A DNA stretch of 64,000 nucleotides from Methylovulum miyakonense HT12 (lineage in GTDB: Bacteria > Pseudomonadota > Gammaproteobacteria > Methylococcales > Methylomonadaceae). The stretch's first letter is position 1, and every line of letters starts with the position of its first letter. Positions 11,038 to 59,510 of the stretch are shown here, piece by piece. A program made the position numbers and the translations under genes. Where the stretch lies: positions 3,016,045 through 3,080,044 of the forward strand of contig NZ_KB913025.1 of the NCBI RefSeq assembly GCF_000384075.1. The letters are read 5' to 3'. The notes below the pieces were generated by a model. That model was not told where the DNA came from. It saw only the letters and a program-made list of their open reading frames with translations, and ran no database searches.

Positions 11038-11056
11038 TGCGTAGGGCGGAATACGC

Positions 11057-12598: not shown

Positions 12599-12674
12599 TG
12601 TATAATCTTATCTGTGTCAAATATTTGTAAGGTTAATACTGTTGTTGTTTCAATACCATAAGGTAATAGCCAAT

Positions 12675-12782: not shown

Positions 12783-12789
12783 GGATAAA

Positions 12790-16148: not shown

Positions 16149-19100
16149 TCAGCCTGTGGCCGCCCCCAGCCTGCGCAAGGCCTCGTCAATGGCCTGGCGC
16201 ACGGTGGCGGCGGTGTTACCGACGATGTTAAGCAGCGCGTCGGCGCTTTTCAGCAGTTCGGCGCGGGCGGTGTCGGGTTTGCCTTGGGCGATGGCGGTGG
16301 CCGCCCGCTGCGCGCTTTGGTAGGCGGGCAGGTAGGCTTTGTTGGTTTTGCTTAAGACCAGCAGTTGCGTTTTGGCGAAGTCCAAGGCTGGGGCATCGGT
16401 GAGCGGCACCGCCAAGCTGAGGCTTTGGTAAGGGTCTTGGGCACTGCCGTCGGCATGGATGTCCAAGCTGGCAAGGGACGTGCCTGTGCTTGGCAACCGC
16501 GCCCAGACCTGATGGCCCAGGCTGGCATCCGCCGCCAGCGTGAACGGCCAGCGCAGGCTGCCGTCGGCTTGCGCCGCGCCGCCGCCCAGGTCATAAACGC
16601 CAGCACCGCCCGCCAAGGCCAAGCCCAGCCAGCCCGTGGCGGGTTGGCTGCCGGCGTTGTGCAGGCTCAGGTTCAAGGCGATGACGTCACCGGCACGGTA
16701 AGCGGGTGCGGGGCTGACATCGGCGAGCAGGTCCAGCAGCAATTGGCTGAACTCGCCAGTGCCAGCCGTTTCCAGCAACGCGCCTTGCGCCAACAGGTCG
16801 AAGCCCAGGTAGGCGGCTTTGCCGCGCCCGTAGGTTTGTACCGTGACGGCGCAGTCGGCGGCTTTATTTTTGGCATCCAGGAATTGCCCCAACATTAGGG
16901 CCGTTAACGGACGGATGCGGTTGACCGGACAGGCGGTGGCAAACGGTTTGCCGAACGCGCCGTAGCCGGGCGAAGCCGGAACCATCAAACCGTAAGCCGT
17001 GCTATGGCCAACATAGTGCAGCCCCAACACGTTATCCAGGACATTGTTGCGTTGGTCATGGTCGCCGCCGACCAGTAGCCCCAAGCCGTGGTTGACCGCT
17101 TCGCGCAGTTCTTTCTGCACGGATTCGTCCAGTTTGACTTGTGCCGACAGCAGCGCATGGAGGCGGTAAGCCCCGCCACGCAGGGCACGGGTATAGGCAT
17201 CGTCGGTGTCAACGATGGCGTACTGCCAACCGGCGGCCTCCAACACCCTGCCCAGATAGGCGCGTTCGGCCTGTTGGGTTTGGCAGGCGGCATCGCCTTC
17301 GTGGCCGTCGCCATGTTCGTCATTATCGTGACCGCTGTCTTCCTCGCTTTCGTGGCCATCGCCATGCCCGTGGCCGTCCGAGTGACGGTCATCATCGTCT
17401 TCCTCCTCATGGCCACTGTCATGATGGCCGCCATCGTCATCGTCATCGTCATCGTCATGCTTGCACTCCTTGTCCAACGGGTCGAGCAGCACCAGCAGGC
17501 GCCCGTGTCCGCCAAGTTCCAGCGTGCCGCGCAGGTCGATGGTAGCCTTGGCCGGTGTGATGGCGACACTGACCAAAGCGGTGGCGCACACTGTGGTGTC
17601 GGGTGCGGGCAGGCAGACTTGGTAGCTGAAGCTGTCATTACCTTGGTAACCGCTGGCGGGGTTGTAGGTGTAATCGCCAGTGGCGTTGAGGCTTGCCGTG
17701 CCGTGGCTGGCGGGGCTTTGCAGCGTATACAGCGCACCGGACGGGGCGATGTCATTGCCGGACACGCTGCCTCCGACGCTTTCGCCCGCTTGGGTCGTGG
17801 CACTATCGGCCACGGCGGCAGGGCCCACCGCCACGGTGAGGGTGGCGGTGTTGGTGGCTTGATGGAGGCTATCCTGCACCCGGTAGCTGGCTTGGGCAAG
17901 GCCGCTAAAGGCGGAGTCGGGGTTGAACAGGACGCTGCCGTCAGCTTGCCGCGCAAACACGCCTTGGCCTGCCACGCTCAAGCTAGTGTCGATGGTAGCG
18001 GTGGCGGGGTCTAAATCCAGCGTGGCGGCTGTGAACCCCATAGTGCCGGGGCCGGCCAGGTCATTGGCCAGCGGGGTCAGGGTGACGGCCTGTGCGTGGG
18101 CGGTGCCGGCACGGTCAGCGGTGGCGACGGACGGCGCACCGTCAATGGCGAAATCCAGCGCAGTGAGGGCGGTGATGTGGGTGGTGACGTCAAGGCTCCC
18201 GTCCGCGACGGCATCGGCTACACCGCTTATTATTTCACCTGTGTACGACCAGCCTGCAGGCAGGGCGGCTCCGGTGGCGTTGGCCGCCGTGGACAGCACC
18301 AAGCGGTAGGTAGTAACCCCAGGTACGGTGAGTTGGTAACTGCCATCGGCTTGCACAGGGGCGCTGGCAACCACCAGGCCGCCCTGGCTTGCAGTCACCC
18401 ACAGCCCGCCAGCATCGGTGCCGGGTTCGTCCGCCGTTTGGATGCGGTCATGGTCAAGGTCGTGGAACACATGGCCATTAAGGGTGATTTGCGGTGCGAT
18501 GGCGGTGAACGGCGCAGCGGCGACATCTTTGGCCGTGCCGTCCACGGTGGCGCGGAGCACGCAGGCGTAATGGCCGGGCAAGAGGTTTGCCGTGTCGACG
18601 CTGCGGTCAAGATGGTCGGTTTGCCCGCCAGCCAGATCAACGGTACGGTCAGCTTGGCTGACGAGAGTGGCGGTGTCGGTGTCGAGGTTGACCAGCAGGC
18701 CGGACACTGCCAAAGCGCCGGTGCCGCTGGCGGATTGGTTGCTGAGGTCTTCCGCGCAGGTGAGCGGTGTGCCAATGACTACCGGGTTGGGGCTGGCGGC
18801 AACGCTGCCGGCCAAGCCTTGCAAGGTGGTGCGGACGACGCTGAAGGTATTGCTGAAGCTGTCCATGACGGCATTGTCTTCGGCGCGGTTGATGGAGACC
18901 GCCACCTGGTAGGTGCCACTGGCGGCATCCGCCAACGCGAAGCTGAAGCTGGCGGGGAGGCTGCCGCCCGCCGCCAGATCGGCTATGTCCGTTGTCCCGG
19001 CATAGACCACGGTGCCGTCCGGTGCGGTGACGCTGACCGCCACGACGGTGGGCGGCAACAAGGCGTTGGTGGCGGTGTTGCTGATAAGGCCATCCAACTG

Positions 19101-22100
19101 CACACTGTCCCAACCACCATAGATCAGCTTGTCGGGGCTGAGGGTGGCGGACAGTGCGGGCGTCTGCGGGTCTTGGACAATAGCGAACGGAACGCTGCCA
19201 TCGGCAACTTGGCGTCCGGCGGTGTCGTAAAGGGTGGCCTGGAGGTGGTAATCGCCAATCAGGAACAGCCCGGTGCCCCATAGGGCGGGATAGGCGACAG
19301 TGCTGGTGCCGGCTTGGCCGTTGATGGCAATACTCGGTAAATCCTGTACCGGGAAGCCGTCGGCATCGGCGACGCTAAGGCGCAGTTCGCCGTCGAATGG
19401 CTGGACACCGCCGTTGCTGACATCGACGGTGATGTGGACGGGCGACAGCGGGCCGTACTGGCTGGCATCCAGTTTGGGCGCCAGTTGCATGGCGCTGCTG
19501 GCCAGCACGTCAGGGATGGCCAGCGGGGTGCGCACGGTCTGCCCGGGCACGAAGCTGTTGTTGAATTCGATGTAGGCTGACTCGGCGATCGGGCGGGACT
19601 CGCCTTCGGCCATGCCCTTGAGCAACAGCCCCAACTGGATTTGTGCGCCTTTGTTGTCGACCTGGCTCAGCTTCCAGACATGCTCGAAGCGGCCGCCGCC
19701 CAAGTCGGTGGACTGGCTGGGGGCGGGCGTGAGGGCGGACACACCGACATCGCCACGGGTGACCAGATGGACATCGGCGTCAATGCCGCCGCAGACCAGC
19801 GGGAAGGAGAAGATCTTGCCGTTGTTCAGATCCGTCCAGATCAGCAGCCGCTGGCCGAAGCGGTCATAGTACAGCACGTCCATGTCGGACATCGCGGGGT
19901 CGTAGTCGGGGCCGTAGAGGACTTGGCGTTCCTCGCCCGTGTCGCCGACTATTTGAAGCAAAGTATCCTCTTCTTTATTTGTATTCTTGAAAGGATAGTC
20001 AGTCCAAGGTGCATAGAGCAGGTTATTGGAGCAGTCTGCAATGACATTCACCCCTTCAAATTCAAAAATGGCTTGCGGACGATGGTCAGCATAGCGTTTG
20101 CCGTCAGGGCTGATTCGGAGAACTTTATGGTAACTCCGCAGAATTCCATCTTCATCATAATGGGTTACTAAATTGGAAGTTGGGATATAGAAATATCCAT
20201 AGGCATCAATGGTAAGTCCGCGGGCATTGGAGATACCGGTTTTGGTGACCAATTCCACCTGCCCATCGGGATGGATGCGCGACAAAATGTTGCCCGCATC
20301 CACCGTGTAAAGCAATCCGTCAGCCCCTATTGCCAGCCCTTTGATGGCGAAGCCGACACTGGCAAATGGGGTCACCGTCCCATCAGGGGCGATTCTCAGC
20401 ACGGTACCGGTATCTGTCGTCGCATTAGGATAGGCATACAAATTGTCTTGGTTGTCAATGGCCAAACTGCTGCCTAATGCGTAACCCGACATGAAAGTGG
20501 ACAAAGTTCCGCTAGGGCTAATACGTACAATACTGGAGGTAGTCGAGGCATTAGTGGCGTAAATATTGCCTTTAGTGTCGGCGGCAATGCCTCTTCCGGT
20601 GGTTTTTGATGAAGCCGCCAAGGTGGTGCCGGACGGGTCGATGCGGGTGATGCTGGTGGAATCGGCGCCAAACAGCTGGATAGTGGTCTGGTCGTCTTGA
20701 TCACCAGGATGTACGGTGGGTTGGGACACCGTGATATCGCCGTGGGCGTTGGGGCCGACATGCAGGGTGTTCGCCAACGCGCCGTATTCGGCATGGGTAT
20801 CCACGGTGAGTTCGGCTTGGAAATCACCGCTCAGGGTCGGTGTCCAACTGTCAAAATCTAGGGATATGGCGGCATCGCCAAGAGCCAACGGCGGCAACAT
20901 GACGGTGCGGGTATAGATTTCTTCACCGATGTCGGTAGGTGGAGTCGATAGGGATAGTTTCAATATTTCGTCGTTCAGCAAAGAATTGGTATAGTCAACC
21001 ACCGCCCTCAATTCAAAATTGGAATTCCAAACGATTCCTTGCGTTAATACGGGTAAAGCAGAAGTCATTTCACGACGACCTCTATTAGGAGCAATCAAGG
21101 CCAATTTGTATCCCCCATAAATGACAGCTATAGTTCCATTAGGAGCAATGGCGAAAGTTCCCAAAGAAGGCAAGAGAGTTTGGACAGTTTCCAAGGTGTT
21201 GTCGGATGTGATTCGAAAAATAGCCCCAATTGAGACATCGCCAACATATAATCTTTCTTGGTCATCGGCTTGTATTTCCGACAGATTGGTAAAACCAGTT
21301 AAAGGCAGTTTGGTTTTGATGCCGGTAGGTGTTATTTTCCATACGCCATTGCTAGCTGCCGCAATATAAACCGTCCCGTCCGCCAATACTTCAAGAGCAC
21401 GGCCAGCTACTCCTGTTCCTATTCTTTGGCGGGAGCCATCAACTGACAGTCGATCATAGTTACCACCTCCACCGTTAAGAACGTAAATGTCTCCGTTTGA
21501 TGCCACGTCCACGTCGATAGGATTGGAAAATCCTGAAGCAATTTGAGTTATTCCACCATTGGTTTCTATGCGGCTTAACGTGCCTGGATAGTGAACCACA
21601 TATAAATTGCCTGCTGCATCCTTATCTATTGCTTGTGGATTGATCAAGCCATTGCCTTCGATAATTTTCTCAATATCCAAGACATTATTGTTGCTCTGGT
21701 AGCCTTGGTTTTTCAGCCTGACCTTGAGCGTCGCCGTGCCACCTGCCAAATCCAAATTGCCCCGGTTGCTGACCTTGGCTGTGATATGCACGGGTTGCTG
21801 GGCGGCCAGTTGCGCGATGGGCGGGTTGAACTCGACCGAACCGCCAATAGTTTTGGTGGGCTGGATGTCGAACGGGACGCCACGCTCGGCGAGCAATTGC
21901 CCGGTCACGCCGTCATAGGCCTGGACGGTGAGGCTGTAGCCGCCAGGGGCGGTGGCGCCGTTATGCCAGTCGATGTTGGTGGCGAGGCTGCCGCTCCCGG
22001 GCACGGTTTCCAGCGCGTCGGCGGCGTTGCCGCCAAGCGGGATGATCCGTGCCGGAAATTCGTCGATCACTTGCCCCGCCACAGTGGTGATGATCCCATA

Positions 22101-24692
22101 CAGACGTACGCTGCGGTCGGTGCTTTTGGCGTTGGCGAGCTGGATGTCGGCTTCGATTTTGCCATGGGCCAGGAAGCTGGGGTGGTTCAGCACCAAGGAG
22201 CGGATGTCAATGTCTCCGCCAGCGGCGCGTTCCAAGGCCACGTTCAGGGTGGACAGCCCGGCTTGCGCCAAGCTGATGTCGCCTTGGCGGCTGAGGTAGC
22301 CGACCGCGCTGATGCTGACGCTAAACTGGTTGGCGCCAATGCCTTCGATCCGGTAAGAACCGTCGGCGGCGGTCTGCACCCGTTTGCTTTCGCTGGCGAT
22401 GGTGACCACGGCGCCGGCCAGTGGTTGGCCGCCTTGGCTGTCGGTGACCACGCCCGCCAAGGTGTTGCCGTTGGCGGTGGCAAACGGCAGGCGGATAGTG
22501 CCCAAATCGGAGGTGCCAGCGGACGCGGTCAAGGACAGGCGCAGGCCTTGGTAACCGGCCCTGTTCACATCCAGCACCCAAGCCCCTGGCGCCAAACCTT
22601 CCAAGCGGAATTGCCCGTTGCCATCGGTCATGGCGGTGACAGTGCTGCCTGCGACCACCACGGAGGCATCCGATAAAGGCTGGTTGCTGGCGGCATCGAC
22701 GATAGTGCCAATCAGGGTGGCTTGGGTCGGTACGGTGGCAGATTCGGTCAGCAGGCCTGGGGAGAAGGTGAGCGTGGCCCCGGCGGTGAGGGTGGCGGTT
22801 CCGGTCGCGTCCCGATAGCCCGGGGCGGAAGCGGTGACGCTGATGTTCCCGGTAGGGGCGACGATACGATAGGCGCCCAAGGCGTTGGTCACCGCCGATG
22901 TGGTGCTGCTGCTGCCGGTCAAGTTGATGTGGGCATTGGCAATCGGGTTGCCGGTGGCGGCATCGGTGATGCTGCCAGTGACAATGCCTTCATCTTGGGC
23001 GCCGGACAAGGACGGCAGGCGGATCACGCCCATATCGGAGGTGCCGGCCGGGGCGGTCAGCGTAATGTGGGCGGAGCGGTAGCCCGCCAAGCTGACATCC
23101 AATTCCCAATTGCCCGGTTGCAGGCCGGTCAAGCCGAAGCCGCCGTCGGCATCGGTGACCGTCCTGAGCGTGCCGCCGCTGACGGCGACATCCACGTCCG
23201 ACAAGGCTTGCCCGCTATCGGCATCTACCACTGTCCCCAAAAGGCTAGTGGTGGTGGGCGGTGTACCGGAAGCTTCGGTCAGGCTGGGCGACAAGGTCAA
23301 GGTCGCCCCGGCCATCACGGTGGCCTCCGCTGTTGCGGTCAGGAAACCGGACGCCGCCAAGGTGACGGTGTAGGAACCGGCTGGCACCACTAGGCGGTAA
23401 GCGCCCGCCGCGTCGGTCAGCGTCGTGTTGTTGCCGTTGGCCGTAATGGCGACCCCAGCCAGCGGCTGGTGGCTAGCGGCGGCTGTGACAGTACCTGACA
23501 GGATGCCCGCATTGCTGGCGACCGTCAGGCCGACGCTACCAACCGCCGCCTGCTGTCCGGCATCGACCAGCGCCGTACGGTTGGCATTGGCGTAGCCGGT
23601 CAAGGCAAAATCGAAACCATGGAGGCCAGGGGTAATGCCCGTGAGCAGGAATTCGCCGTCGGTTCCGGTAAGGGCCGATTGCCCGCTGTCCGCCGTCACT
23701 TGCACGCCCGCCAAAGGCAGGCCGCTGAGTTGGTCCACGACGTGGCCCGTCACCGATCCGTTCCACGGGGATGTTGTCCCGCCACCGTTCTTGATGGCCT
23801 GCAAGGCGCGTGCCGCCAAGGCGGTCTGGTAGACATCCTGCCCCCAAGAGCCGTCACTCAATTGCGCGTTTTGTAAGGCTTGGATGGCGTTGCTGTAAGG
23901 TGTTGTGTCGGTGGTGGCCGGGATCAGCGCCAGTAACGTCCAGGCCGTGTCCATCGTGCTACCCCAACCGCCTGTGCCGGCTTGCGCGGATTGCAGGAAA
24001 GCGGTTGCCTTGCCAATGGCTTGGGTCAGGTCATAACGCAGGCGTAGGCTGTGCAAGGCCATTAAGGCGGATGCCGTGGTATAGGTCGCCCCCTGCCCGT
24101 AAGGGTTTTGGGTAAAGCTGCCGTCGGCGTTTTGTTGGTTACGCAGGTAGGCCACCGCCGCCGAGATCACGGCGGTAGGGCTGGCATTGGTTTTTGCCAA
24201 GGCCTCCAACGCGAAGGCGGTGTCCAAGGCGTTGCTGGTCTGCTCCGGTGCGCCGCCAAAACCGCCGTCGGGGTTTTGGTTGGCCTCCAGGCTGGCCAGC
24301 ACGCTGGCCGCCGGGCTGCCGGCCTCGCTATGGGCAATGAGGGCACGGGATAGGTATTCGGTGACGGGCTGTCCGGTGGCGGTGTCCAGGAAAGCCAGCG
24401 AGCTTGCCAGGCTGCCGTTCGTGGCAGAGAGTGCCTGTTGGGTGCGCAGGGTTTCGGCAGTGGCCTGGACAGGGGTGGCGATATCGTCAGGGCGGGCGTA
24501 GCTGCCGTCCGTTTGCAGTTGGCCGTTAAGCCATGACAGCGCCGCCGTATTGGCCATCCCAGGCATAGGCAACAAGGCCAGCAACCAGAGCAGGGCAGTG
24601 ATGGCTAGGGCGGTTGGCGCGGGCATGGGGGGGTTGCGGCGGGTGGCTTCCTTTTTACGGAGGCTCATGGATGTCAGGCAAGTGGCGGTCAT
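16149..24692 (-). CDS. Giant secreted multidomain protein (prenyltransferase-like repeats, CarboxypepD-like repeats, beta-propellers, Asp/His-rich linker)
   Basis: The product has 2,847 residues. I prefer ATG 24692, with AAGGA ten bases upstream; TTG 24698 would add two residues. A signal peptide lies near residues 23-48. Residues ~55-305 hold at least five alpha-alpha repeats with 'DGSW/GGFG' turns like terpene cyclases. About 312-817 has six CarboxypepD-regulatory-like beta domains, ~820-990 CARDB-like domains, and two NHL-type beta-propellers at ~1000-1220 and ~1340-1590. Ig-like domains, an SdrD-B-like domain (~2070-2150) and cadherin-like domains (~2190-2385) follow. Residues ~2411-2468 are almost only Asp, His, Glu, Gly and Ser, a likely metal-binding stretch. 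The C-terminal ~380 residues begin with a GATase-like fold. It is probably cell-surface. It heads the same-strand run of effector genes with 98 bp to the next, so it may be their surface scaffold or carrier; that role is inference. Confidence 0.7.
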   Translation of the reverse strand: MTATCLTSMSLRKKEATRRNPPMPAPTALAITALLWLLALLPMPGMANTAALSWLNGQLQTDGSYARPDDIATPVQATAETLRTQQALSATNGSLASSLAFLDTATGQPVTEYLSRALIAHSEAGSPAASVLASLEANQNPDGGFGGAPEQTSNALDTAFALEALAKTNASPTAVISAAVAYLRNQQNADGSFTQNPYGQGATYTTASALMALHSLRLRYDLTQAIGKATAFLQSAQAGTGGWGSTMDTAWTLLALIPATTDTTPYSNAIQALQNAQLSDGSWGQDVYQTALAARALQAIKNGGGTTSPWNGSVTGHVVDQLSGLPLAGVQVTADSGQSALTGTDGEFLLTGITPGLHGFDFALTGYANANRTALVDAGQQAAVGSVGLTVASNAGILSGTVTAAASHQPLAGVAITANGNNTTLTDAAGAYRLVVPAGSYTVTLAASGFLTATAEATVMAGATLTLSPSLTEASGTPPTTTSLLGTVVDADSGQALSDVDVAVSGGTLRTVTDADGGFGLTGLQPGNWELDVSLAGYRSAHITLTAPAGTSDMGVIRLPSLSGAQDEGIVTGSITDAATGNPIANAHINLTGSSSTTSAVTNALGAYRIVAPTGNISVTASAPGYRDATGTATLTAGATLTFSPGLLTESATVPTQATLIGTIVDAASNQPLSDASVVVAGSTVTAMTDGNGQFRLEGLAPGAWVLDVNRAGYQGLRLSLTASAGTSDLGTIRLPFATANGNTLAGVVTDSQGGQPLAGAVVTIASESKRVQTAADGSYRIEGIGANQFSVSISAVGYLSRQGDISLAQAGLSTLNVALERAAGGDIDIRSLVLNHPSFLAHGKIEADIQLANAKSTDRSVRLYGIITTVAGQVIDEFPARIIPLGGNAADALETVPGSGSLATNIDWHNGATAPGGYSLTVQAYDGVTGQLLAERGVPFDIQPTKTIGGSVEFNPPIAQLAAQQPVHITAKVSNRGNLDLAGGTATLKVRLKNQGYQSNNNVLDIEKIIEGNGLINPQAIDKDAAGNLYVVHYPGTLSRIETNGGITQIASGFSNPIDVDVASNGDIYVLNGGGGNYDRLSVDGSRQRIGTGVAGRALEVLADGTVYIAAASNGVWKITPTGIKTKLPLTGFTNLSEIQADDQERLYVGDVSIGAIFRITSDNTLETVQTLLPSLGTFAIAPNGTIAVIYGGYKLALIAPNRGRREMTSALPVLTQGIVWNSNFELRAVVDYTNSLLNDEILKLSLSTPPTDIGEEIYTRTVMLPPLALGDAAISLDFDSWTPTLSGDFQAELTVDTHAEYGALANTLHVGPNAHGDITVSQPTVHPGDQDDQTTIQLFGADSTSITRIDPSGTTLAASSKTTGRGIAADTKGNIYATNASTTSSIVRISPSGTLSTFMSGYALGSSLAIDNQDNLYAYPNATTDTGTVLRIAPDGTVTPFASVGFAIKGLAIGADGLLYTVDAGNILSRIHPDGQVELVTKTGISNARGLTIDAYGYFYIPTSNLVTHYDEDGILRSYHKVLRISPDGKRYADHRPQAIFEFEGVNVIADCSNNLLYAPWTDYPFKNTNKEEDTLLQIVGDTGEERQVLYGPDYDPAMSDMDVLYYDRFGQRLLIWTDLNNGKIFSFPLVCGGIDADVHLVTRGDVGVSALTPAPSQSTDLGGGRFEHVWKLSQVDNKGAQIQLGLLLKGMAEGESRPIAESAYIEFNNSFVPGQTVRTPLAIPDVLASSAMQLAPKLDASQYGPLSPVHITVDVSNGGVQPFDGELRLSVADADGFPVQDLPSIAINGQAGTSTVAYPALWGTGLFLIGDYHLQATLYDTAGRQVADGSVPFAIVQDPQTPALSATLSPDKLIYGGWDSVQLDGLISNTATNALLPPTVVAVSVTAPDGTVVYAGTTDIADLAAGGSLPASFSFALADAASGTYQVAVSINRAEDNAVMDSFSNTFSVVRTTLQGLAGSVAASPNPVVIGTPLTCAEDLSNQSASGTGALAVSGLLVNLDTDTATLVSQADRTVDLAGGQTDHLDRSVDTANLLPGHYACVLRATVDGTAKDVAAAPFTAIAPQITLNGHVFHDLDHDRIQTADEPGTDAGGLWVTASQGGLVVASAPVQADGSYQLTVPGVTTYRLVLSTAANATGAALPAGWSYTGEIISGVADAVADGSLDVTTHITALTALDFAIDGAPSVATADRAGTAHAQAVTLTPLANDLAGPGTMGFTAATLDLDPATATIDTSLSVAGQGVFARQADGSVLFNPDSAFSGLAQASYRVQDSLHQATNTATLTVAVGPAAVADSATTQAGESVGGSVSGNDIAPSGALYTLQSPASHGTASLNATGDYTYNPASGYQGNDSFSYQVCLPAPDTTVCATALVSVAITPAKATIDLRGTLELGGHGRLLVLLDPLDKECKHDDDDDDDDGGHHDSGHEEEDDDDRHSDGHGHGDGHESEEDSGHDNDEHGDGHEGDAACQTQQAERAYLGRVLEAAGWQYAIVDTDDAYTRALRGGAYRLHALLSAQVKLDESVQKELREAVNHGLGLLVGGDHDQRNNVLDNVLGLHYVGHSTAYGLMVPASPGYGAFGKPFATACPVNRIRPLTALMLGQFLDAKNKAADCAVTVQTYGRGKAAYLGFDLLAQGALLETAGTGEFSQLLLDLLADVSPAPAYRAGDVIALNLSLHNAGSQPATGWLGLALAGGAGVYDLGGGAAQADGSLRWPFTLAADASLGHQVWARLPSTGTSLASLDIHADGSAQDPYQSLSLAVPLTDAPALDFAKTQLLVLSKTNKAYLPAYQSAQRAATAIAQGKPDTARAELLKSADALLNIVGNTAATVRQAIDEALRRLGAATG
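17415..17456. repeat. Hexamer microsatellite CATCGT in the Asp-rich coding segment
   Basis: Four to five tandem CATCGT units (plus strand, about 17432-17455) encode the poly-Asp run on the minus strand. The surrounding 17300-17420 is also built from short GTCAT/GGCCAT units coding for His and Asp. Such tracts change length easily without loss of frame, because the unit is a multiple of three. Confidence 0.7.
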
Positions 24693-25241
24693 CTGCAAAC
24701 AGTCCTTTCGGTAGATGTGTTAGGTTAATGGAAGCCGGTAACGCGGAAATAGTAACCTATGGCACGGGCGGGTGTCTGCTGGTTTTCTAGCGCGTTTGTG
24801 AAGGAAGTTCCGCAGCCGTGCTGTTTTTTATATTTTTGTGATGGAAATCACGTTTATTATGGCATCCGGCGAATTTGGCTACCGTGCCGGGAATATAGGG
24901 AGGTCAAACAGCGTGAAACATGACCAGGGATTGTGGTGGACATGCGCCATCTTCAGTACGTTTTTTTAAAAATAGCCAGTGCTTGCTGATTATATTTTTA
25001 ATGGGGTAGCTCTGGCTTCCCCCGCTTTTTTGTAAGATCCATCATCTCCCTGCCCAATCTTCCATACCATCAAGATCTAACTCAATCCTCATCTAATCTT
25101 AATCAAACCCCACCGTTTCCCCTCATTTTGTCCCTGTAAGCTTTACCTAAACGTAGCGACGGGTGCTTGCACCGCGTTGTTTGGGGATGGATGGTTTTCA
25201 CCGTCCGTCATTGGGTAAAGACAGTATAGGAGTTTAGTGAA
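24693..25241. promoter_or_regulatory. 549-bp divergent intergenic region between the effector island and the exopolysaccharide locus
   Basis: No gene is visible. The region must hold the promoters of the giant protein (leftward) and of the exopolysaccharide locus (rightward). A clear AGGAG ribosome site at 25228-25232 precedes the ATG at 25242. A small hairpin GGTGC-TT-GCACC occurs near 25165. I do not see a convincing sigma-54 site or a classical JUMPstart element, and I cannot place the promoters with confidence. Confidence 0.4.
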
Positions 25242-46996: not shown

Positions 46997-48199
46997 TCAA
47001 TCTTTCTTGAATTTGGCCGCTTCTTCCGAACCGCCCGTAGCATTGCCTTTACTGTAGGAATGCGCACCGGCCCCCGCCAATTGCCCGCCTTGGACAATCA
47101 AATATTCGTCGCGGATGGGGCGGCCTTCGAAATGGCATTCGAGAATTTCGCGCGTACCCGCCGCATAACGGGTTTGTGCCGACAAACTCGTGCCGGAGAT
47201 ATGCGGGGTCATGCCGTGGTTGGGCATGGTGCGCCACGGATGGTCGTTCGGCGCGGGTTGCGGAAACCAGACATCACCTGCATAACCCGCCAATTGTCCA
47301 CTTTCCAGCGCGTTGACTATCGCGTCACGGTCGCACAGCTTGCCGCGTGCCGTGTTAATCAAATAGGCGCCGCGTTTGAAGTTTTTCAAACTTGCTTCGT
47401 TAATCATGTGCTCGGTTTCAGGATGCAGCGGACAGTTCAACGTCACCACGTCACAGACCTTGGTCAAGCTTTCCAGGCTGGAGTGGTAAGTCAGGTTGAG
47501 TTCCTGCTCGACCGCTTCCGGCAAACGGTGGCGGTCCAGATAATGCAGCTTCACATCGAACGGTTTCAGCAAGCGCAACACCCGCAATCCAATACGTCCG
47601 GCGGCAACCGTGCCGACATGCATCGCTTCCAAATCATAAGAACGCGCCACACAGTCGGCGATATTCCAGCCACCTTTAATGACCCAGTGGTAAGACGGGA
47701 GGTAATTGCGCACCAACGCCAGCGTCATCATGACGACATGTTCGGCGACGCTGTTGCTGTTGCAGTAGGTGACTTCGGCCACGGTGATGCCGCGTTCCAT
47801 GGCCGCCTGCAAATCGGTATGGTCGGAGCCGATGCCCGCCGTGACGATCATTTTCAGGTTTTTGGCCTTGGCGATACGTGCGGCGGTCATGTAAGCGGGC
47901 CAGAACGGTTGGGAAATGACGATTTCAGCATCGTGTAGTTCGTGGTCGAGAACGCTGTCGGCACCGTCTTTGCTGGACGTCACCACCAGTTGGTGACCAT
48001 TAGATTCCAAATATTTACGCAGGCCCAACTCGCCGGACACGCTACCTAGCAATGCGCCGGGCTGGAAATCTATGGCTTTGGGGGTAGGCAGGGTTTGCCC
48101 ATCGGGGTAACGTTCCGGTTGCGGCAAATCATCACGCGCATAAGCAGTGGGATAACCGCCGATAGGGTCGTCGTAAAGCACACAAACAATTTTAGCCAT
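46997..48199 (-). CDS. fdh: NAD-dependent formate dehydrogenase
   Basis: The 400-residue cytoplasmic enzyme oxidises formate to CO2 with NAD+, the last energy-yielding step of one-carbon oxidation. It belongs to the D-2-hydroxyacid dehydrogenase family and closely follows the bacterial methylotroph type. Visible features: 'PGALLGSVSGELGLRKYLE', 'TAGIGSDHTDL', 'EVTYCNSNSVAEHVVMM', NAD motif 'VGTVAAGRIGLRVL', the NAD-selecting Asp in 'LDRHRLP', catalytic Arg in 'NTARGKLCD', and His in 'MTPHISGTSLSAQ'. Length matches these enzymes. It stands alone with a long upstream region (48200-48863), so it has its own promoter. Confidence 0.93.
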   Translation of the reverse strand: MAKIVCVLYDDPIGGYPTAYARDDLPQPERYPDGQTLPTPKAIDFQPGALLGSVSGELGLRKYLESNGHQLVVTSSKDGADSVLDHELHDAEIVISQPFWPAYMTAARIAKAKNLKMIVTAGIGSDHTDLQAAMERGITVAEVTYCNSNSVAEHVVMMTLALVRNYLPSYHWVIKGGWNIADCVARSYDLEAMHVGTVAAGRIGLRVLRLLKPFDVKLHYLDRHRLPEAVEQELNLTYHSSLESLTKVCDVVTLNCPLHPETEHMINEASLKNFKRGAYLINTARGKLCDRDAIVNALESGQLAGYAGDVWFPQPAPNDHPWRTMPNHGMTPHISGTSLSAQTRYAAGTREILECHFEGRPIRDEYLIVQGGQLAGAGAHSYSKGNATGGSEEAAKFKKD

Positions 48200-52598: not shown

Positions 52599-53711
52599 TT
52601 ATTTGTTGAACAACTGGCTAAACGCATCCAGGCCGGATTGGGGGCAATAAGAAAATGCCTGGGTTTTAGCCAAGCAATAAAGGGTGTCGCCTTCTTGTAA
52701 GTTCATCTCCCGGCAAGCCCTCAAGGTAATGCCGGCCAACCAGGTTTTGCCGCAGTCAATTTGCACCAAGATCCCGTTGCCGTGGGGTATTAAGGCGCAA
52801 ATCCGTCCCTTGACTTGGTTTTGTATTGAAATGCCAGGGAGGTAAGTGCGCGACAAGGCGATTTCATGGGCGGGTATGCTGACCGTGACCCAAGAACCCA
52901 TAGGCAAATCGCGGCGCAAAGGCAACACCAATTCAATGCCATAGGTTTTTGCCAGCGTGCAACCATCCATGAGGTCATGCCCGGTCACCATGGCCGGTAT
53001 CTTGTTTTCGACAAGCCCCAAGCCAATTTTTTGTATCAGCTCGGCGTTTTGCAGCAGTTCCGTTATCAAGCCGACTTGGATGGCGCGGCCTTCGGCGACC
53101 ACGACGATTTTGTCGCTGAATTCGACAATATCGCCCAATGCGTGGCTGGCGTAGAACAACGGCAGGTTCAGCTCGCTACGCACCCGTTTTAGGAACGGCG
53201 TCACGGAATTGGCAAAATACCCCATGGTCGCCAAGGGATCGTCCAGCAATAACAAGGCGGGCGACTTTAACAGGGCCCTTGCCAGCAAGACCCGTTGGAG
53301 CTCTCCAGTGGACAAATGCCCCATAGCTTGCCCCAATAAATGCCCGATATCGAGAAATTCGATCAGGTGTTTCGGTTTTAAGGTGCGCCGCTGCTTGAGC
53401 GTGCGTTCGTGGGCCGAAGACAGGCCATCGTTTACGGTCCCGTCGGATGGCCACCGGTCATCTTGGAGCACGGCACCGATAGGCCTTTGTTCACGGGGCA
53501 CCATGATGCCTTTGCGGCTATCAAACAGGATTTTGCCATCCAACACTATCCGCCCCTCTTCCGGCATCAGGGTTCCGGCCAACAGGCCCAAGATAGTGCT
53601 CTTCCCGGCACCGGAACGTCCGATCAACCCCATGCTTTCGTCCTGTATCGACAAATCGGTGGTCAGGTCAAAATTGCCGCGCCGCATGGAGACGTTCATT
53701 TCTAGCAACAT
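52599..53711 (-). CDS. modC: ModC-like ABC ATPase with TOBE/Mop domain, altered Walker B
   Basis: The 370-residue protein resembles the ATPase of molybdate importers. Residues ~1-230 form the ABC domain with Walker A 'GRSGAGKST', Q-loop 'AVLQDD', signature 'LSTGELQRV', Walker B 'LLLLDDP' and H-loop 'YASHALGD'. The usual ModC signature is LSGGE and Walker B ends DE-P. Here the catalytic Glu is Asp and the D-loop after it ('LATMG') is not recognisable. From ~300 a TOBE/Mop-like molybdate-binding domain is present ('GISIQNQVKGRICALIPHGN'). No modA or modB lies nearby. It may be a slow or regulatory ATPase. AAGGAG precedes the ATG; the hydrogenase operon is divergent. Confidence 0.75.
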   Translation of the reverse strand: MLLEMNVSMRRGNFDLTTDLSIQDESMGLIGRSGAGKSTILGLLAGTLMPEEGRIVLDGKILFDSRKGIMVPREQRPIGAVLQDDRWPSDGTVNDGLSSAHERTLKQRRTLKPKHLIEFLDIGHLLGQAMGHLSTGELQRVLLARALLKSPALLLLDDPLATMGYFANSVTPFLKRVRSELNLPLFYASHALGDIVEFSDKIVVVAEGRAIQVGLITELLQNAELIQKIGLGLVENKIPAMVTGHDLMDGCTLAKTYGIELVLPLRRDLPMGSWVTVSIPAHEIALSRTYLPGISIQNQVKGRICALIPHGNGILVQIDCGKTWLAGITLRACREMNLQEGDTLYCLAKTQAFSYCPQSGLDAFSQLFNK

Positions 53712-53944: not shown

Positions 53945-54886
53945 ATGGCGGCATTACTCTGGCTACAAACTGGCTCTTGTGGTGGCGACACCATGTCACT
54001 CCTGTGCGCCGACAGCCCATCTTTGGAAGAGCTGGTGGATGAGTATGGCATCGAAATGCTCTGGCAGCCCTCCTTGTCCTTAGGGCCTGCCGGCAAATTG
54101 GACGCCTTGGTCGAAGCGGTCATCGCCGGCCAACAGGACTTGGACATTTTGTGCATTGAAGGCAGCATCATCACTGGCCCCAATGGTTCAGGCATGTATG
54201 ACCCGTACCGGGGGCGTTCCAAAATGGGCCTGGTCCGGCAACTGGCCGAAAAGGCGCAATATGTGGTGGCTATGGGCACTTGCGCGGCATACGGCGGTGT
54301 CCATGCCGCACCACCCAACCCCACCGACTGCCTGGGTCTGCAGTTCGACAAACACTCCCCCGGAGGCCTATTGCCGGCCGGATGGCGCTCCCGCAAAGGC
54401 CTGCCCGTCATCAATCTTTCCGGTTGCCCCGCGCACCCCAATGCGATGACCAAAACCTTGGCCATGCTGGCTTTGGGGTTGGCCGTGGAACTCGACCATC
54501 TCAACCGTCCCAAAGCTTTTTTCAATACCACGGTGCACCAGGGCTGCACCCGTAACGAATACCATGAGTATGACGTGGAAGACGCCGAGTTCGGCGGCAA
54601 AGCGTGCATGTTCTTTAATCTAGGTTGCCAAGGGCCGGTCACGATGGCGGTATGCAACACCGAATTGTGGAATGGCCGCAGCAGCAAGACCCGCGCCGGT
54701 GTGCCGTGTTTCGGTTGCACGTCCCCGGATTTCCCGCTAGACCACGACTTGTTCCGCACCGAAAAAATCGGCCCTATCCCGTTACATCTGCCGCTGGGCG
54801 TTGAGCGGGCGAATTATATGGCCTACAAAAGCCTGGCCCATGAAGCGGCGCCTGAACGGGTGCTTAACAAGACCATGGATCCTTGA
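53945..54886 (+). CDS. [NiFe]-hydrogenase small subunit (iron-sulfur subunit)
   Basis: The product is 313 residues from ATG 53945 (GGAG seven bases upstream); an ATG 27 bases earlier has no site. There is no twin-arginine signal, so the protein is cytoplasmic. It carries the three Fe-S clusters that lead electrons away from the Ni-Fe site. Proximal cluster: Cys12 and Asp15 in 'GSCGGDTMS', Cys in 'MGTCAAYGG' and Cys in 'SGCPAHP'. Asp15 replaces the usual Cys. Medial and distal clusters: 'HQGCTRNEYHEY', 'GKACMFFNLGCQG', 'GVPCFGCTSP'. The overall look is of group 2 or actinobacterial-type (group 1h) enzymes, and the operon context favours a sensory group 2 enzyme. First gene of a four-gene operon. 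Confidence 0.9.
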   Translation: MAALLWLQTGSCGGDTMSLLCADSPSLEELVDEYGIEMLWQPSLSLGPAGKLDALVEAVIAGQQDLDILCIEGSIITGPNGSGMYDPYRGRSKMGLVRQLAEKAQYVVAMGTCAAYGGVHAAPPNPTDCLGLQFDKHSPGGLLPAGWRSRKGLPVINLSGCPAHPNAMTKTLAMLALGLAVELDHLNRPKAFFNTTVHQGCTRNEYHEYDVEDAEFGGKACMFFNLGCQGPVTMAVCNTELWNGRSSKTRAGVPCFGCTSPDFPLDHDLFRTEKIGPIPLHLPLGVERANYMAYKSLAHEAAPERVLNKTMDP

Positions 54887-54888
54887 GC

Positions 54889-56427
54889 ATGGCCAGAAGA
54901 ACCATCCAAATCGACCTTAACCGCGTCGAAGGCGACCTGGATTTCCAACTGGAACTGGAAGGCAATACCGTCGTCGATGCCCGCTGTATCGGTTCGCTCT
55001 ACAGGGGGTTCGAACAAATCCTCGTGACCCGCAAGCCTAAAGATTCGTTGGTGATCACGCCACGTATCTGCGGCATTTGTGGCACCGCGCAACTCAACGC
55101 GGCGGTGCTGGCCTTGGAACAGATCGGCCGCATCCCCGTGCCGCCCACGGCCATCCGCATCCGCAACCTGTGCCTGATGGCGGAGACGGTGCAAAGCGAT
55201 TTGCGGCAATCTTTTTTATTCTTCACCGCCGATTTTTGCCATCCCAAATACAGCCAGCGTGGCTTTTATGAAACGGCACGGGCCGCGTTCTTGCCGTTCA
55301 AAGGTTCAGTCCACCGTGGCGCCCTTGAGCATTCGCGCCATATTGTCGAAATTATCGCCCTGTTTGGCGGCCAGTGGCCGCATTCGTCGTACATGCTGCC
55401 GGGTGGCGTGACCGCGCCCGCGAATAGCCGCCACATCATCGACAGCCTGTCCATCCTCAACAAATTGACCCGCTGGTTCGAACAGGATGTGATCGGGACT
55501 GGCCTGGACAACTGGCTAGCCTTAGAAACCGCCGATGACTTTTTCTCTTGGTTGGCGGCAAAAGACGCCCACTCCGACAGCGCCATCGGCCTGTTCTCGT
55601 TGATAGGCCGGGACATCGGCTTGCACCGTTTGGGCTTCGGCACACCCCACATGCTCAGCTATGGCGCTTATGACGACCCTGATGATGCGGAAACTCCCCC
55701 GCCGCAGCGCAAGCACTTGTTCAGGGCCGGTTTCCTGGATGGCGACACCGGTGAGCTTAAGCCATTCGAGCAAGCCGAAATTACCGAACATGTGCGCTAT
55801 TCCTGGTTCCAGCCCTACGCAGGTGGCCGCCATCCGTTTCAGGGGCAAACCATCCCGGATTACCAGCCCCATTCTGACCGTTATACTTGGTGCAAGGCGC
55901 CCCGCTATCAAAATAAAGTCGTGCAATGCGGCCCGTTGGCCGATGCGCTTATCGACGGCGAGCCGCTGATCCGTTCCTTATACCAGCTTGAGGGCGGCAA
56001 TGCCTGGCTGCGCCAGTTCGCCCGTTTACGCCGTACCGCGCGGCTGTTGCAGACAATGCGCACAACCCTGCACCAGTTGGCCGCGCATCCTGATGGCCCG
56101 CACATGGTTTCCCCCGTCGAAAAGGAAATCCCTGACGGCGAAGGCTTTGGGTTGGTGACGGCGGCGCGTGGCGCGCTAGGCCATTGGGTGCAAATCACCG
56201 ATGGCGCCATTAGCCGTTATCAAGTCATCACGCCCACCGCCTGGAACGCCTCGCCCAAGGATAGCGAAGGCCGCCGCGGGCATTGGGAGAGCAGCCTGAT
56301 CGGCCTGACGGTTGATGATCCCGATGACCCTGTGGAAATTGGCCATATCATCCGTTCCCACGATCCCTGCCTGGTCTGCACCGTGCATTTGCTCGATACG
56401 GGCAAACGCCTCACCGTATGGCCTTAA
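54889..56427 (+). CDS. [NiFe]-hydrogenase large subunit (catalytic)
   Basis: From ATG 54889, two bases after the small-subunit stop, the protein has 512 residues. It binds the Ni-Fe(CN)2CO centre that splits H2. The N-terminal ligand motif is 'RICGICG' (Cys61, Cys64), and the C-terminal one 'DPCLVCTVH' (Cys494, Cys497). Other family features are 'NRVEGDLDF', 'GFEQILVTRKP' and 'LGHWVQITDG'. Twelve residues follow the final His, the kind of tail that a maturation protease removes, and such a protease is encoded next. Classical regulatory hydrogenases (HupV/HoxC) lack this tail. Group assignment needs a proper classifier. Confidence 0.92.
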   Translation: MARRTIQIDLNRVEGDLDFQLELEGNTVVDARCIGSLYRGFEQILVTRKPKDSLVITPRICGICGTAQLNAAVLALEQIGRIPVPPTAIRIRNLCLMAETVQSDLRQSFLFFTADFCHPKYSQRGFYETARAAFLPFKGSVHRGALEHSRHIVEIIALFGGQWPHSSYMLPGGVTAPANSRHIIDSLSILNKLTRWFEQDVIGTGLDNWLALETADDFFSWLAAKDAHSDSAIGLFSLIGRDIGLHRLGFGTPHMLSYGAYDDPDDAETPPPQRKHLFRAGFLDGDTGELKPFEQAEITEHVRYSWFQPYAGGRHPFQGQTIPDYQPHSDRYTWCKAPRYQNKVVQCGPLADALIDGEPLIRSLYQLEGGNAWLRQFARLRRTARLLQTMRTTLHQLAAHPDGPHMVSPVEKEIPDGEGFGLVTAARGALGHWVQITDGAISRYQVITPTAWNASPKDSEGRRGHWESSLIGLTVDDPDDPVEIGHIIRSHDPCLVCTVHLLDTGKRLTVWP

Positions 56428-56430
56428 GTT

Positions 56431-56883
56431 ATGGGCGGGCGCCATATCATTTGTTTTGGCAATGAGCTGCACGGGGATGACGGCTTTGGTCCCCGCATCT
56501 ACACGGAGCTTTGCCAATTGGCGTGGGCCAGCGATGCCGAAGTGTTCAATGCCGGTATCGCCGGGCTTGATGCGCTAAGGTTTCTGGAGGGTTGCCGGCA
56601 GGCGATCCTGGTCGATGCGCTGGCCAACTTCGGGAAGCCGGGTGACGTTTGCCTGGTGAGGCCTGAAGAATTGGCTAACCGGCCCCAACGGCTTAGCGGC
56701 CATGGCCTGGGGCTTCCCTATTTGTTGGAGGCCTTTAAAAGCCTCCGGGGGCCAGTGCCGGAGATCCTGATCGTGGGGGTCGAAGTAACCGCTGCCAAAC
56801 CCTTTTCCCCTGGCCTGTCCGCCAAAACCGAACAGGCCGTACCTACAACCCTCCAATTGATACGGAGCCTTTTGTCGGAATGA
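56431..56883 (+). CDS. Hydrogenase maturation protease
   Basis: The 150-residue protein is a nickel-dependent endopeptidase of the HyaD/HupD (M52) family, which cuts the C-terminal tail of the large subunit after nickel insertion. Signatures are 'GNELHGDDGFGPRI' (Glu and Asp metal ligands in the GNxLxxDDGxG pattern), 'DAEVFNAGIAGLDAL' with the second Asp, and 'ILIVGVEVTAAKPFSPGLS' with the typical 'G-V-E' and later helix. It begins three bases after the large subunit and overlaps the next gene by four bases (ATGA). Its presence agrees with the cleavable tail seen on the large subunit. Confidence 0.88.
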   Translation: MGGRHIICFGNELHGDDGFGPRIYTELCQLAWASDAEVFNAGIAGLDALRFLEGCRQAILVDALANFGKPGDVCLVRPEELANRPQRLSGHGLGLPYLLEAFKSLRGPVPEILIVGVEVTAAKPFSPGLSAKTEQAVPTTLQLIRSLLSE

Positions 56884-59510
56884 GCCGCCAAAGCCCCTAT
56901 TTCCGCAATGCCATCATCGAATCGCTGAGCTTCCTCGACACGCCTGATCCCCCGCGTTGGACGGGCAAATTACGGCGGCCTGACGGGCATCAGCCTATGG
57001 ATGTCCTGGTTTTTGACATTGCCGGGGAATTCCTGGCTATCCCGGCCTTATGTCCGCATGAAGGCTACCATTTGGCGCAATGCCCGCTGCTTGACGGCCA
57101 CACCCTGGTTTGCCCGGCGCATAGCCTGCGCATCGACCTAAAAACGTCCGGGTTCCGTGTGGAAAAGGACGGCGACCAATTTCTGTTGCCCTTGGACGGA
57201 ACTAGGCTTCCCGGAACAATTGAAAATGGACTTGGGTTTATCGCCTCCGCCAATGGTGCTAAGGGTGGCCCGGAAACCTTGGCCAAGTTACGGGAGGAAA
57301 TCGAAAATCTACGGTTAGCCAATCTGAAACAGGAAAGGCAAATCCTCGTCATCACCCAAAGCATGGATGCCATGCTCAGTGAATCACAACAGCAGCAGCA
57401 AAAAATTAAAGAAAAAGCAGACCAGCAGCATAGCCTCAGCCGCTTTGTTGCCCGGGTCATGGATGCCATGGATGACCTGCTGTTCGTCATTGACACGGAA
57501 GGGCGGATCCGGCGGGTGAATACGGAAGTGGGGCGCGAGCTTGGGTTTTCCGAAGCCGAACTGTTAGGGTGCGGCATTGACGGCTTGTTGCCGCCTGCGG
57601 AACGGCAGCAGCTTGCCGGGCAATTGCCGGCCCTGCCTTGGCCCGTCCAATCCGTGCTGTTGGAAACCGTCCGGCTGCACGGGAACTACACTGGCGAGCA
57701 TGGGCTGCTCGGCAAAAATGGGGATAAACCCGCAGCCATTTATTGGCTGAAAGGGGGTTTGCTGCATTCGGAACAGGGCAAACTGGAAGGCGCGGTCGTG
57801 ACCGCTTTGGACATCTCCGAGCTGAAAGACCGGGAAATACGGCTGCGCTTAAGCGCCAAAGTCTTCGAGAACAGCAGCGAGGCCATTTTCATCACCGACC
57901 CGCAAGGCGTCATTTTGGATGTCAATGCCGCCTTCTGCTCAATCACGGGTTACGTGCGGCCCGAAGTGCTGGGCCAAAGCACCCGGATATTGAAATCGCA
58001 CATGCACGACCCGCCGTTTTACGAACGGTTATGGCAAGCGTTATTGGGCAAGGGGGTTTGGAAAGGCGAGATATGGGACCGCCGGAAAAATGGCGAACTC
58101 TGCCCGATGCTGCTCAGCATCAATGCCGTCACCGACGAGCATGGCCTGCTTACCCATTATGTGGCGATTTCCACGGATATTAGCCACCAGAAACAAACGG
58201 AACAGGAACTCCAGCAGCTGGCGCATTACGATGTGCTCACCAGGCTACCTAACCGGTTTCTGTTCAAAGACCGGTTTGAGCAGGAAATTCTATTGGCGCG
58301 AAGCCATAACACCCGGCTCGCGTTGCTTTTTCTTGACCTGGACCATTTCAAAAATATCAACGATACCCTTGGGCATTGGGCGGGCGACTATTTATTGCAA
58401 ATCATTGCCGTCCGCATCCAAAGTTGCTTACGTAAAACGGATACGGTCGCCCGTTTGGGCGGGGATGAATTCACCATCATCCTGCCCAATTTGGTCGGCA
58501 TTGCCACTGCCACCGAGCTGGCCCGGAAATTGGTCGAGGCCATCTCGGAACCGGTGCAGATTAAGGACCATACCGTCTACGTTGGCATCAGCATCGGCAT
58601 TGCGGTGTTTCCCGATGACGGCACCGATTTCGACACCCTGACCAAACATGCGGACACGGCGATGTATGCGTCCAAAGCCCAAGGGCGCGGCATGTTCCAA
58701 TACTTCGAAACGGGCATGAATGAGGCGGCGTATCAGAGGCTGTCGCTGGAAAACGCCTTGCGGCTGGGGATAGAACGGGGGGAATTCCAACTTTATTACC
58801 AGCCCAAAGCCGCGTGTGTTTCCGGCCGGATAACGGGCGCCGAAGCCTTGGTCCGCTGGCGGCGCCCTGGTTTTGGGATGGTCCCGCCCGACCGTTTCAT
58901 TACCGTCGCCGAAGAAACGGCATTGATCATTCCGCTAGGCACCTGGATACTGAAGGCCGCCTGTTTGCAGGCCCATATTTGGGCTAACAAACGGGCAGGG
59001 TTCCGGCTTGCGGTCAACCTCTCGGCCCGGCAACTGCTGGCGGATGATTTTATCGCCATCCTCGACGATATTTTGGCAGAAACCCAAACAAGGCCGGAAT
59101 GGATTGAATTGGAAGTGACCGAGAGCCTGGTCATGCATGATGTCGAAAAAGCGGCCGAGCGTTTGCAACAAATCCGCCAGCGCGGCATCCAGGTCGCGAT
59201 GGATGATTTCGGCACCGGCTATTCGTCTTTATCCTATCTGCAAAAATTGCCCATCCATACGCTTAAAATCGACCGTTCCTTCATCCAGGTTTATAGGGGC
59301 GACCCCGCCTCGAACGAAGCGGCATTTATCAAGACCATAGTGTCCCTCGGGAAAATCCTGGACATGAAAGTTGTCGCCGAAGGTGTGGAGACCGAATCCC
59401 AATTGCAGCTGCTGCAATCTTTCGGCTGTGACGAGATCCAGGGATATTATCTTTCGCCGCCGCTGCCTGCGGACGAGTTCCAGAGGCGTTGGATTGAACC
59501 AGCCGGGTAG
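56880..59510 (+). CDS. Rieske-PAS-PAS-GGDEF-EAL protein (redox-linked cyclic di-GMP enzyme)
   Basis: The 876-residue protein overlaps the protease gene by four bases. Residues ~20-120 are a Rieske domain with the complete ligand set C-x-H-x17-C-x2-H: Cys58, His60, Cys78, His81 ('CPHEGYHL', 'VCPAHS'). A coiled coil spans ~133-185 and two PAS domains ~187-315 and ~325-440. The diguanylate cyclase domain (~445-610) has intact 'GGDEF' (527-531). The EAL phosphodiesterase domain (~620-870) has 'AEALVRW', 'NLSARQL', 'ELEVTESL', 'DDFGTGYSSL', 'LKIDRSF' and 'EGVET', so both catalytic sites look active. No membrane segments. It is co-transcribed with a cytoplasmic hydrogenase, so I infer that electrons from H2 reach the Rieske cluster and tune c-di-GMP output. 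Confidence 0.92.
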   Translation: MSRQSPYFRNAIIESLSFLDTPDPPRWTGKLRRPDGHQPMDVLVFDIAGEFLAIPALCPHEGYHLAQCPLLDGHTLVCPAHSLRIDLKTSGFRVEKDGDQFLLPLDGTRLPGTIENGLGFIASANGAKGGPETLAKLREEIENLRLANLKQERQILVITQSMDAMLSESQQQQQKIKEKADQQHSLSRFVARVMDAMDDLLFVIDTEGRIRRVNTEVGRELGFSEAELLGCGIDGLLPPAERQQLAGQLPALPWPVQSVLLETVRLHGNYTGEHGLLGKNGDKPAAIYWLKGGLLHSEQGKLEGAVVTALDISELKDREIRLRLSAKVFENSSEAIFITDPQGVILDVNAAFCSITGYVRPEVLGQSTRILKSHMHDPPFYERLWQALLGKGVWKGEIWDRRKNGELCPMLLSINAVTDEHGLLTHYVAISTDISHQKQTEQELQQLAHYDVLTRLPNRFLFKDRFEQEILLARSHNTRLALLFLDLDHFKNINDTLGHWAGDYLLQIIAVRIQSCLRKTDTVARLGGDEFTIILPNLVGIATATELARKLVEAISEPVQIKDHTVYVGISIGIAVFPDDGTDFDTLTKHADTAMYASKAQGRGMFQYFETGMNEAAYQRLSLENALRLGIERGEFQLYYQPKAACVSGRITGAEALVRWRRPGFGMVPPDRFITVAEETALIIPLGTWILKAACLQAHIWANKRAGFRLAVNLSARQLLADDFIAILDDILAETQTRPEWIELEVTESLVMHDVEKAAERLQQIRQRGIQVAMDDFGTGYSSLSYLQKLPIHTLKIDRSFIQVYRGDPASNEAAFIKTIVSLGKILDMKVVAEGVETESQLQLLQSFGCDEIQGYYLSPPLPADEFQRRWIEPAG

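Follow-up and report, generated by a model that had tools for sequence, protein, structure and literature searches.

A group 2c [NiFe]-hydrogenase operon of Methylovulum miyakonense with a Rieske-PAS-PAS-GGDEF-EAL protein: a candidate H2-responsive cyclic di-GMP switch

Positions 53945–59510 of the 64,000-nucleotide stretch analysed here (the window; Methylovulum miyakonense HT12, contig NZ_KB913025.1, positions 3,016,045 to 3,080,044 of the forward strand) encode, all on the + strand, a [NiFe]-hydrogenase, its maturation protease and a protein that joins a Rieske domain to PAS, GGDEF and EAL domains, hereafter the sensor. The small subunit gene (53945–54886, 313 amino acids, aa; the mechanical open reading frame, ORF, begins at 53918 and relatives align from ~53945) is overlapped by 4 bp by the large subunit gene (54883–56427, 514 aa). 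After a 3-bp gap follows the protease gene (56431–56883, 150 aa), which matches Pfam HycI (E 2e-13) and, above cut-off, TIGR00072 (E 1e-28), and which overlaps by 4 bp the sensor gene (56880–59510, 876 aa; Rieske-coil-PAS-PAS-GGDEF-EAL). An earlier sequence-only reading had proposed these four overlapping or adjacent genes, and the ORF layout and the Pfam matches agree with it. Judged by its layout, 53945–59510 is a tight four-gene operon, with shared transcription predicted from adjacency and the 4-bp overlaps. No gene for an electron-transfer subunit was seen within this unit or next to it.

The small subunit carries the Oxidored_q6 and NiFe_hyd_SSU_C domains (Pfam, 3.8e-24), has an N-terminal extension no longer than that of its relatives and a conserved C-terminal tail, and finds its nearest solved chain in the small subunit of Huc (7uur, E 4e-84). 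Its C-G-G-D motif (53978–53989, + strand), which we take to hold the first cluster ligands, has Asp at the position of the second Cys in the CGGC of HoxB, from the known H2 sensor HoxBC. Small subunits of the 2c rows defined below read CGGD, apart from CSGD in one locus from another class (L121); the references read CGGC (Cupriavidus necator, group 2b) and CSGN (Mycobacterium, group 2a). The site is a possible class mark. The large subunit (Pfam NiFeSe_Hases, E 3.8e-79) is likewise closest to Huc among solved hydrogenases (7utd/7uus). Both Ni-Fe ligand motifs are complete: R-I-C-G-I-C (C63 and C66; 55063–55080, + strand) and D-P-C-L-V-C-T-V-H (C496, C499 and H502; 56362–56388, + strand), with the ligands invariant in 18/18 aligned sequences. 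Past the last His runs a 12-residue tail (56389–56424, + strand), a predicted target of the maturation protease that, by family knowledge, would be cut off; such a tail is missing from the readable large subunits of group 2b.

To place the enzyme, a large-subunit tree of 61 rows was built, with 2a and 2b labels taken from the C-terminal motif and from the C. necator HoxC and Mycobacterium references. One clade of 41 rows (support 100/96) holds the window and Methylobacter tundripaludum, whose large subunits are 89% identical; groups 2a (7 rows) and 2b (12 rows) were each supported at 100/100. A 2025 survey assigns Methylobacter hydrogenases to HydDB groups 1d, 1e, 2c and 3d (PMC12810054). Among these 2c is the only group 2, and the clade with M. 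tundripaludum is taken as 2c. The window motif S-H-D-P-C-L-V-C-T-V-H also fits the 2c form S-F/H-D-x-C-L-V-C-T-V-H; the consensus printed for the second ligand motif (L2) is SFDxCLVCTVH, with SHDaCLVCTVH in Thiomargarita (PMC4853749). Two marks of the H2-sensing group 2b, a tail-free large subunit and a histidine kinase partner, are missing from the window operon, and in place of the DSCLVCTVH plus long tail of uptake group 2a the window has DPCLVCTVH and 12 residues. On tree and motif, the window hydrogenase is a [NiFe]-hydrogenase of group 2c. The sequence-only reading had named a group 2c proposed to work with second-messenger enzymes, and rightly so, as the HydDB table has such an entry (PMC5037454).

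The sensor begins with a Rieske [2Fe-2S] domain (residues 10–105; 56907–57194, + strand; Pfam E 1.3e-5, 25.5 bits against a cut-off of 20.3) whose ligands are C58, H60, C78 and H81, as had been claimed. A sequence comparison with solved structures gave 13 relatives, Rieske proteins led by 3d89 at E 3.5e-5. The domain was modelled alone because a structure search with residues 1–330 gave PAS domains at the top; the model reached a predicted local distance difference test (pLDDT) score of 86 and a predicted template modelling score of 0.79. All 50 Foldseek matches listed for it are Rieske ferredoxins, oxygenases or Rieske proteins, at probabilities of 0.90–1.00 and template modelling scores of ~0.5, with no E < 0.001. 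Among 35 collected sensors, 22 have C-x-H-(17)-C-x-x-H within the first 140 residues and 13 are without it; ligands and 17-residue spacer do not vary in the 22, one of which comes from another class, and the four ligands are invariant in 19/19 aligned Rieske domains. These data point to a Rieske domain with its full ligand set and a predicted [2Fe-2S] cluster.

A coiled coil follows (residues 131–196; 57270–57467, + strand; a single helix in the model, pLDDT ~93), and then the two PAS stretches found by Pfam. PAS1 (residues 197–312; 57468–57815, + strand) matches solved PAS domains weakly (best E 0.0055) and forms with the coil a candidate, HoxJ-like docking or input region. PAS2 (57861–58181, + strand) is nearest to the redox (flavin) PAS domains of MmoS (3ewk, E 1.3e-26) and NifL (2gj3, E 1.5e-12); because of this likeness PAS2 is probably flavin-binding, and the sensor may have two cofactors, a flavin and the Rieske centre. 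The GGDEF domain (58221–58688, + strand; Pfam 2e-53) retains its active site and its I-site (R518, D521), and the EAL domain (58752–59462, + strand; Pfam 1.2e-70) its catalytic motifs. Across the 35 sensors, the R and D of the I-site and G-D-E-F are conserved in 35/35, the first Gly of GGDEF in 33/35, the E and L of EAL in 35/35 and the other EAL catalytic positions in 34/35, the exception being a row cut by a contig end. The GGDEF and EAL domains, which the sequence-only reading had called intact, are so by their motifs, and diguanylate cyclase and phosphodiesterase activities are predicted. Mean identity to the window over 20 sensors rises along the protein, from 50% (Rieske) through 63% (coil), 68% (PAS1) and 72% (PAS2) to 74% (GGDEF/EAL).

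The distribution of the unit was analysed in two samples, 301 genomes of the order and 398 drawn from across the phylum. A large subunit matched at E <= 1e-60 in 43 order genomes, which were sorted by neighbourhood and C-terminal motif: 22 encode the Rieske sensor, 12 a Rieske-less PAS-GGDEF-EAL sensor and one a PAS-histidine kinase (L070); in one the contig ends too early (L069), and seven are of type 2a or 2b. The outcome that the sequence-only reading had named as fatal to its proposal, a Rieske-GGDEF-EAL protein occurring mostly apart from hydrogenase genes, was not seen. A profile of Rieske domain plus coil gave 22 strong matches in the order (E 7e-92 to 1.4e-66), and by coordinates 22/22 adjoin the 22 Rieske-type hydrogenase loci; the next match, a 161-aa frame, had E 2e-11. 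In the phylum sample the profile, with one extra row, matched in full twice, in the window and in G314, which belongs to another class, both times beside a 2c hydrogenase; a third match (G463, E 1.5e-13) is a free-standing Rieske frame of 125 aa. Pooled over both samples, 23/23 strong matches lie beside a 2c-type hydrogenase. The proposed coupling of a hydrogenase to a cyclic di-GMP (c-di-GMP) enzyme is supported by the recurrence of the four-gene unit in 22/301 order genomes and in one genome of another class.

The idea that the Rieske protein is a widespread stand-alone signalling protein was rejected: none was found among the matches listed in the searched genomes, where scoring took in up to 11 candidates per genome and a very divergent Rieske fusion could escape. 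The weaker matches listed in order genomes (E 2e-11 to 2e-9) are frames of 92–227 aa, that is, free-standing Rieske proteins. A contig scan with the large subunit gave 17 loci, every one in methanotroph records, and a plasmid search matched 38 records, one of them of the 2c kind (Ideonella dechloratans, 58% identity). No match was obtained with the first 200 sensor residues against plasmids, and no relative was found in the viral contigs searched. Over 33 loci, large-subunit and sensor identities correlate at r 0.97 (0/999 permutations as high); hydrogenase and sensor diverge together, and shared species history accounts for part of the correlation.

Three loci have features of their own. The locus of G314 (L121) encodes a Rieske-PAS-PAS_7-PAS-GGDEF-EAL protein beside its 2c hydrogenase, in a genome with three further large subunits, one of group 2b (L136) and two that are group-1-like. 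In the betaproteobacterium I. dechloratans a 709-kb plasmid (NZ_CP088082.1; L141) carries a 2c operon whose GGDEF-EAL sensor is Rieske-less, which suggests transfer. In a metagenome-assembled genome (L037, G104:C43; locus positions ~9998–12579) a frame change within PAS2 splits the sensor gene (416-aa frame), either through an assembly error or because the gene is broken.

The Rieske domain is not common to all partners. Thirteen sister operons, from 12 genomes of the window's family and the Ideonella plasmid, consist of small and large subunit, protease and a PAS-GGDEF-EAL sensor that begins at the coil and has an extra PAS (PAS_3) between PAS1 and PAS2; Pfam, run on 10 of these 13 sensors, found no Rieske domain. 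In the 2c clade, L121 (Rieske) branches first among the 33 rows with a GGDEF-EAL partner, and 12 Rieske-less rows (100/99) are then sister to 20 Rieske rows (100/97). The partner in the other eight rows is a PAS-histidine-kinase-receiver protein (five), a PAS-GGDEF protein (two) or unseen (L069); these distant partners have no Rieske domain by Pfam, and a protease was detected in 6/7 of the rows with a visible partner, the seventh being L125. A PAS signalling protein follows the hydrogenase in 40/41 clade rows, the contig of L069 ending before the partner site, and a coil followed by PAS is what the 2c partners have in common. Because sister and distant 2c operons lack the Rieske domain, a hydrogenase of this kind can have a signalling partner without it. 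The claim that the Rieske domain is the link was therefore not sustained, and the domain is probably a lineage-specific addition rather than the sole link. Mapped on the large-subunit tree its presence needs two changes, either a gain plus a loss or two gains; the split of 12 sensor Rieske domains from 12 free-standing Rieske proteins (97/93) favours a single origin, although L121 and the HucE reference sit on long branches.

Two likenesses connect the system to known H2 sensors. (i) The counterparts of HoxC Ile62 and Phe110, which together presumably narrow the gas channel of H2 sensors, are Ile65 and Phe113 in the trimmed row of the window; only the Phe discriminates, since Ile occurs in 2a too. 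The position of HoxC Phe110 is Phe in 32/33 large subunits of GGDEF-EAL-linked 2c (one Met) and in 12/12 of 2b, and Leu in 7/7 of 2a. (ii) The N-terminal 180 residues of C. necator HoxJ match coil-PAS1 over PAS2 in 20/22 Rieske sensors (small database of 35 proteins; E 3e-9 to 0.04), as does a HoxJ-like Azospirillum kinase, also in 20/22; HoxJ matches the Rieske-less sensors weakly (10/13, E 0.008 to 1.9). A resemblance of coil-PAS1 to the HoxJ input region thus has moderate support.

The reading that we prefer, at a probability of roughly 55%, is that the group 2c hydrogenase is an H2-responsive c-di-GMP switch docked on its partner through coil-PAS1, to which the Rieske centre and the probable PAS2 flavin add redox input. 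It builds on what is legible in the DNA (the operon, the domains and their intact motifs, the co-occurrence and the Rieske-less sister operons); from these we infer the docking site, the electron flow and the direction of the c-di-GMP effect. The hydrogenase, matured by its own protease, would act as an intracellular H2 sensor controlling c-di-GMP and would dock on the coil and PAS1 as HoxBC does on HoxJ. H2 turnover, with the iron-sulfur chain of the hydrogenase reduced, would change the state of the PAS-coil region and shift the balance of cyclase and phosphodiesterase. In the Rieske-bearing lineage, the Rieske centre and the probable PAS2 flavin would most likely take or hold H2-derived electrons, and with such redox inputs the signal would depend on H2 set against O2 or redox state.

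Several results weigh against this switch. Clade 2c is nearer in the tree to the uptake enzymes of group 2a than to the sensors of group 2b, and it has the C-terminal tail missing from 2b; the position of HoxC Phe110 is Met in 8/8 of the other 2c rows, linked to histidine kinases or GGDEF proteins; and the Rieske domain is the fastest-changing part of the sensor (50% identity vs. 80% for the large subunit). The docking site is affected as well: the HoxJ-like Azospirillum kinase prefers PAS2 in 12/13 Rieske-less sensors, the profile probabilities of the HoxJ match differ little between PAS1 (95.3) and PAS2 (92.7), with 17 for the coil alone, and a coil motif common to all 2c partners was not supported by profile comparison, in which the coils of GGDEF-EAL and kinase partners by themselves aligned over 14 columns (probability 4.6).

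A bolder reading, a two-centre redox gate, is tentative. Electrons from H2 would pass through the small subunit to the fused Rieske centre and on to the PAS2 flavin, and a single protein would compute H2 against O2, with c-di-GMP as output. If true, a Rieske centre would serve as a signalling cofactor reduced by a hydrogenase, and nature would have supplied a control in the sister operons that are Rieske-less. We consider similarly doubtful the strict version of the sequence-only reading, in which the small subunit has to pass its electrons to the Rieske centre and this centre alone switches cyclase and phosphodiesterase. The four ligands kept in all 22 Rieske-bearing sensors, despite the fastest domain evolution, argue for it, as does HucE, a protein with NifU and a CxH-CxxC Rieske motif that is needed for H2 oxidation by the 2a enzyme Huc (PMC6883350). 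The Huc operon is therefore a parallel for the pairing of a Rieske-type protein with a hydrogenase of group 2. However, the 13 sister operons must function, if at all, without the domain, and the architecture of HucE differs; its authors argue that its high potential suits electron acceptance, and electron transfer is the role that they prefer, but they allow for others and call the carrier role unproven (PMC6883350).

Less probable still is a mainly catalytic uptake hydrogenase whose neighbour, a redox or O2 sensor, has no more than the operon in common with it or draws electrons from it without reporting H2. The dedicated protease and cleavable tail, a catalytic-type feature, the proximity of the large subunit to group 2a and the two redox-type modules of the sensor are consistent with it, but the partner is a signalling protein, with varied outputs, in all 40 clade rows where one is visible, and the operon lacks an evident electron-transfer subunit. 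In addition, one or more other [NiFe]-hydrogenase large subunits were found in 35/35 genomes with a GGDEF-EAL-linked 2c enzyme, only 2c-bearing genomes having been compared. In 19 of the 35 it is group-1-like (11/22 with the Rieske sensor in the order, 7/12 Rieske-less, plus G314) and in the remaining 16 group-3-like; the window genome has two, one group-1-like (1.57 Mb) and the other group-3-like (1.52 Mb). Within the 2c-bearing genomes compared, such company is as expected of a regulator. That the Rieske domain is a relic, or cluster-free with only a docking or structural role, would fit its rapid change and its loss or absence in the sister group, but is very improbable given ligands and spacing invariant in 22/22 sensors, one of them from another class.

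Group 2c has been listed since 2016 as a putative H2-to-c-di-GMP sensor. The HydDB table calls it 'Diguanylate cyclase-linked (putative)' with an 'Undetermined role', and adds that it 'May sense H2 and regulate processes through cyclic di-GMP production' (PMC5037454). Because HydDB lists it for 2c, the H2-to-c-di-GMP idea is not new; the sequence-only reading knew of no earlier description of a Rieske domain as the link, and the Rieske version is apparently undescribed. No precedent for a Rieske domain fused to a c-di-GMP enzyme, and no test of the proposed 2c role, was found in the open-access literature searched; in one table, Rieske, GGDEF and EAL stand in separate rows, not as one protein (PMC12727194). 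The coupling of H2 to c-di-GMP is thus a published prediction that the present comparisons strengthen. Related methanotrophs offer matched operons of the two kinds, Rieske-bearing and Rieske-less, on which the H2 response and the part played by the Rieske centre can be tested directly. If the switch is real, H2 would be tied to attachment and motility decisions in methane-oxidising bacteria.

Around the operon little is kept. None of its seven flanking genes was retained near the hydrogenase in 22/24 loci tested, and in the other two (L061 and L141) the flank matches were partial, at 34% and 30% identity, respectively; the four-gene unit itself is real and conserved. Near the operon lie an NAD-dependent formate dehydrogenase (46997–48199, above cut-off) and a ModC-like ABC ATPase (52599–53711, below cut-off), the latter not kept beside the operon in relatives. 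Elsewhere in the window, several related large secreted-looking proteins stand in a row (2074–16050), two of whose ORFs (7810–11019 and 12790–16050) start nearly alike (MFTARSLRPISGTTLFFFLWM...), and a repeat-rich ORF of 2849 aa (16149–24698) adjoins them.

Compared with known systems, the window sensor resembles MmoS and NifL in PAS2, which is closest in sequence to their PAS domains, and differs from them in its remaining domains. Huc is the closest solved hydrogenase, and its operon too includes a Rieske-type protein; HucE, however, is a separate NifU-Rieske protein unfused to signalling domains, and the 2a large subunit has DSCLVCTVH with a longer tail. With HoxBC/HupUV and HoxJ the system has in common a cytosolic hydrogenase with a PAS signalling partner, the Phe at HoxC position 110 and a coil-PAS1 region like the HoxJ N-terminus. 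In contrast to them, its output is a c-di-GMP enzyme rather than a histidine kinase, its large subunit has a tail and a protease of its own, and its small subunit reads CGGD, not CGGC. The nearest match is HydDB group 2c, with which the window shares the large-subunit clade, the L2 motif and the downstream GGDEF/EAL gene; the 2c descriptions consulted do not mention a Rieske domain, whereas the window partner carries one.

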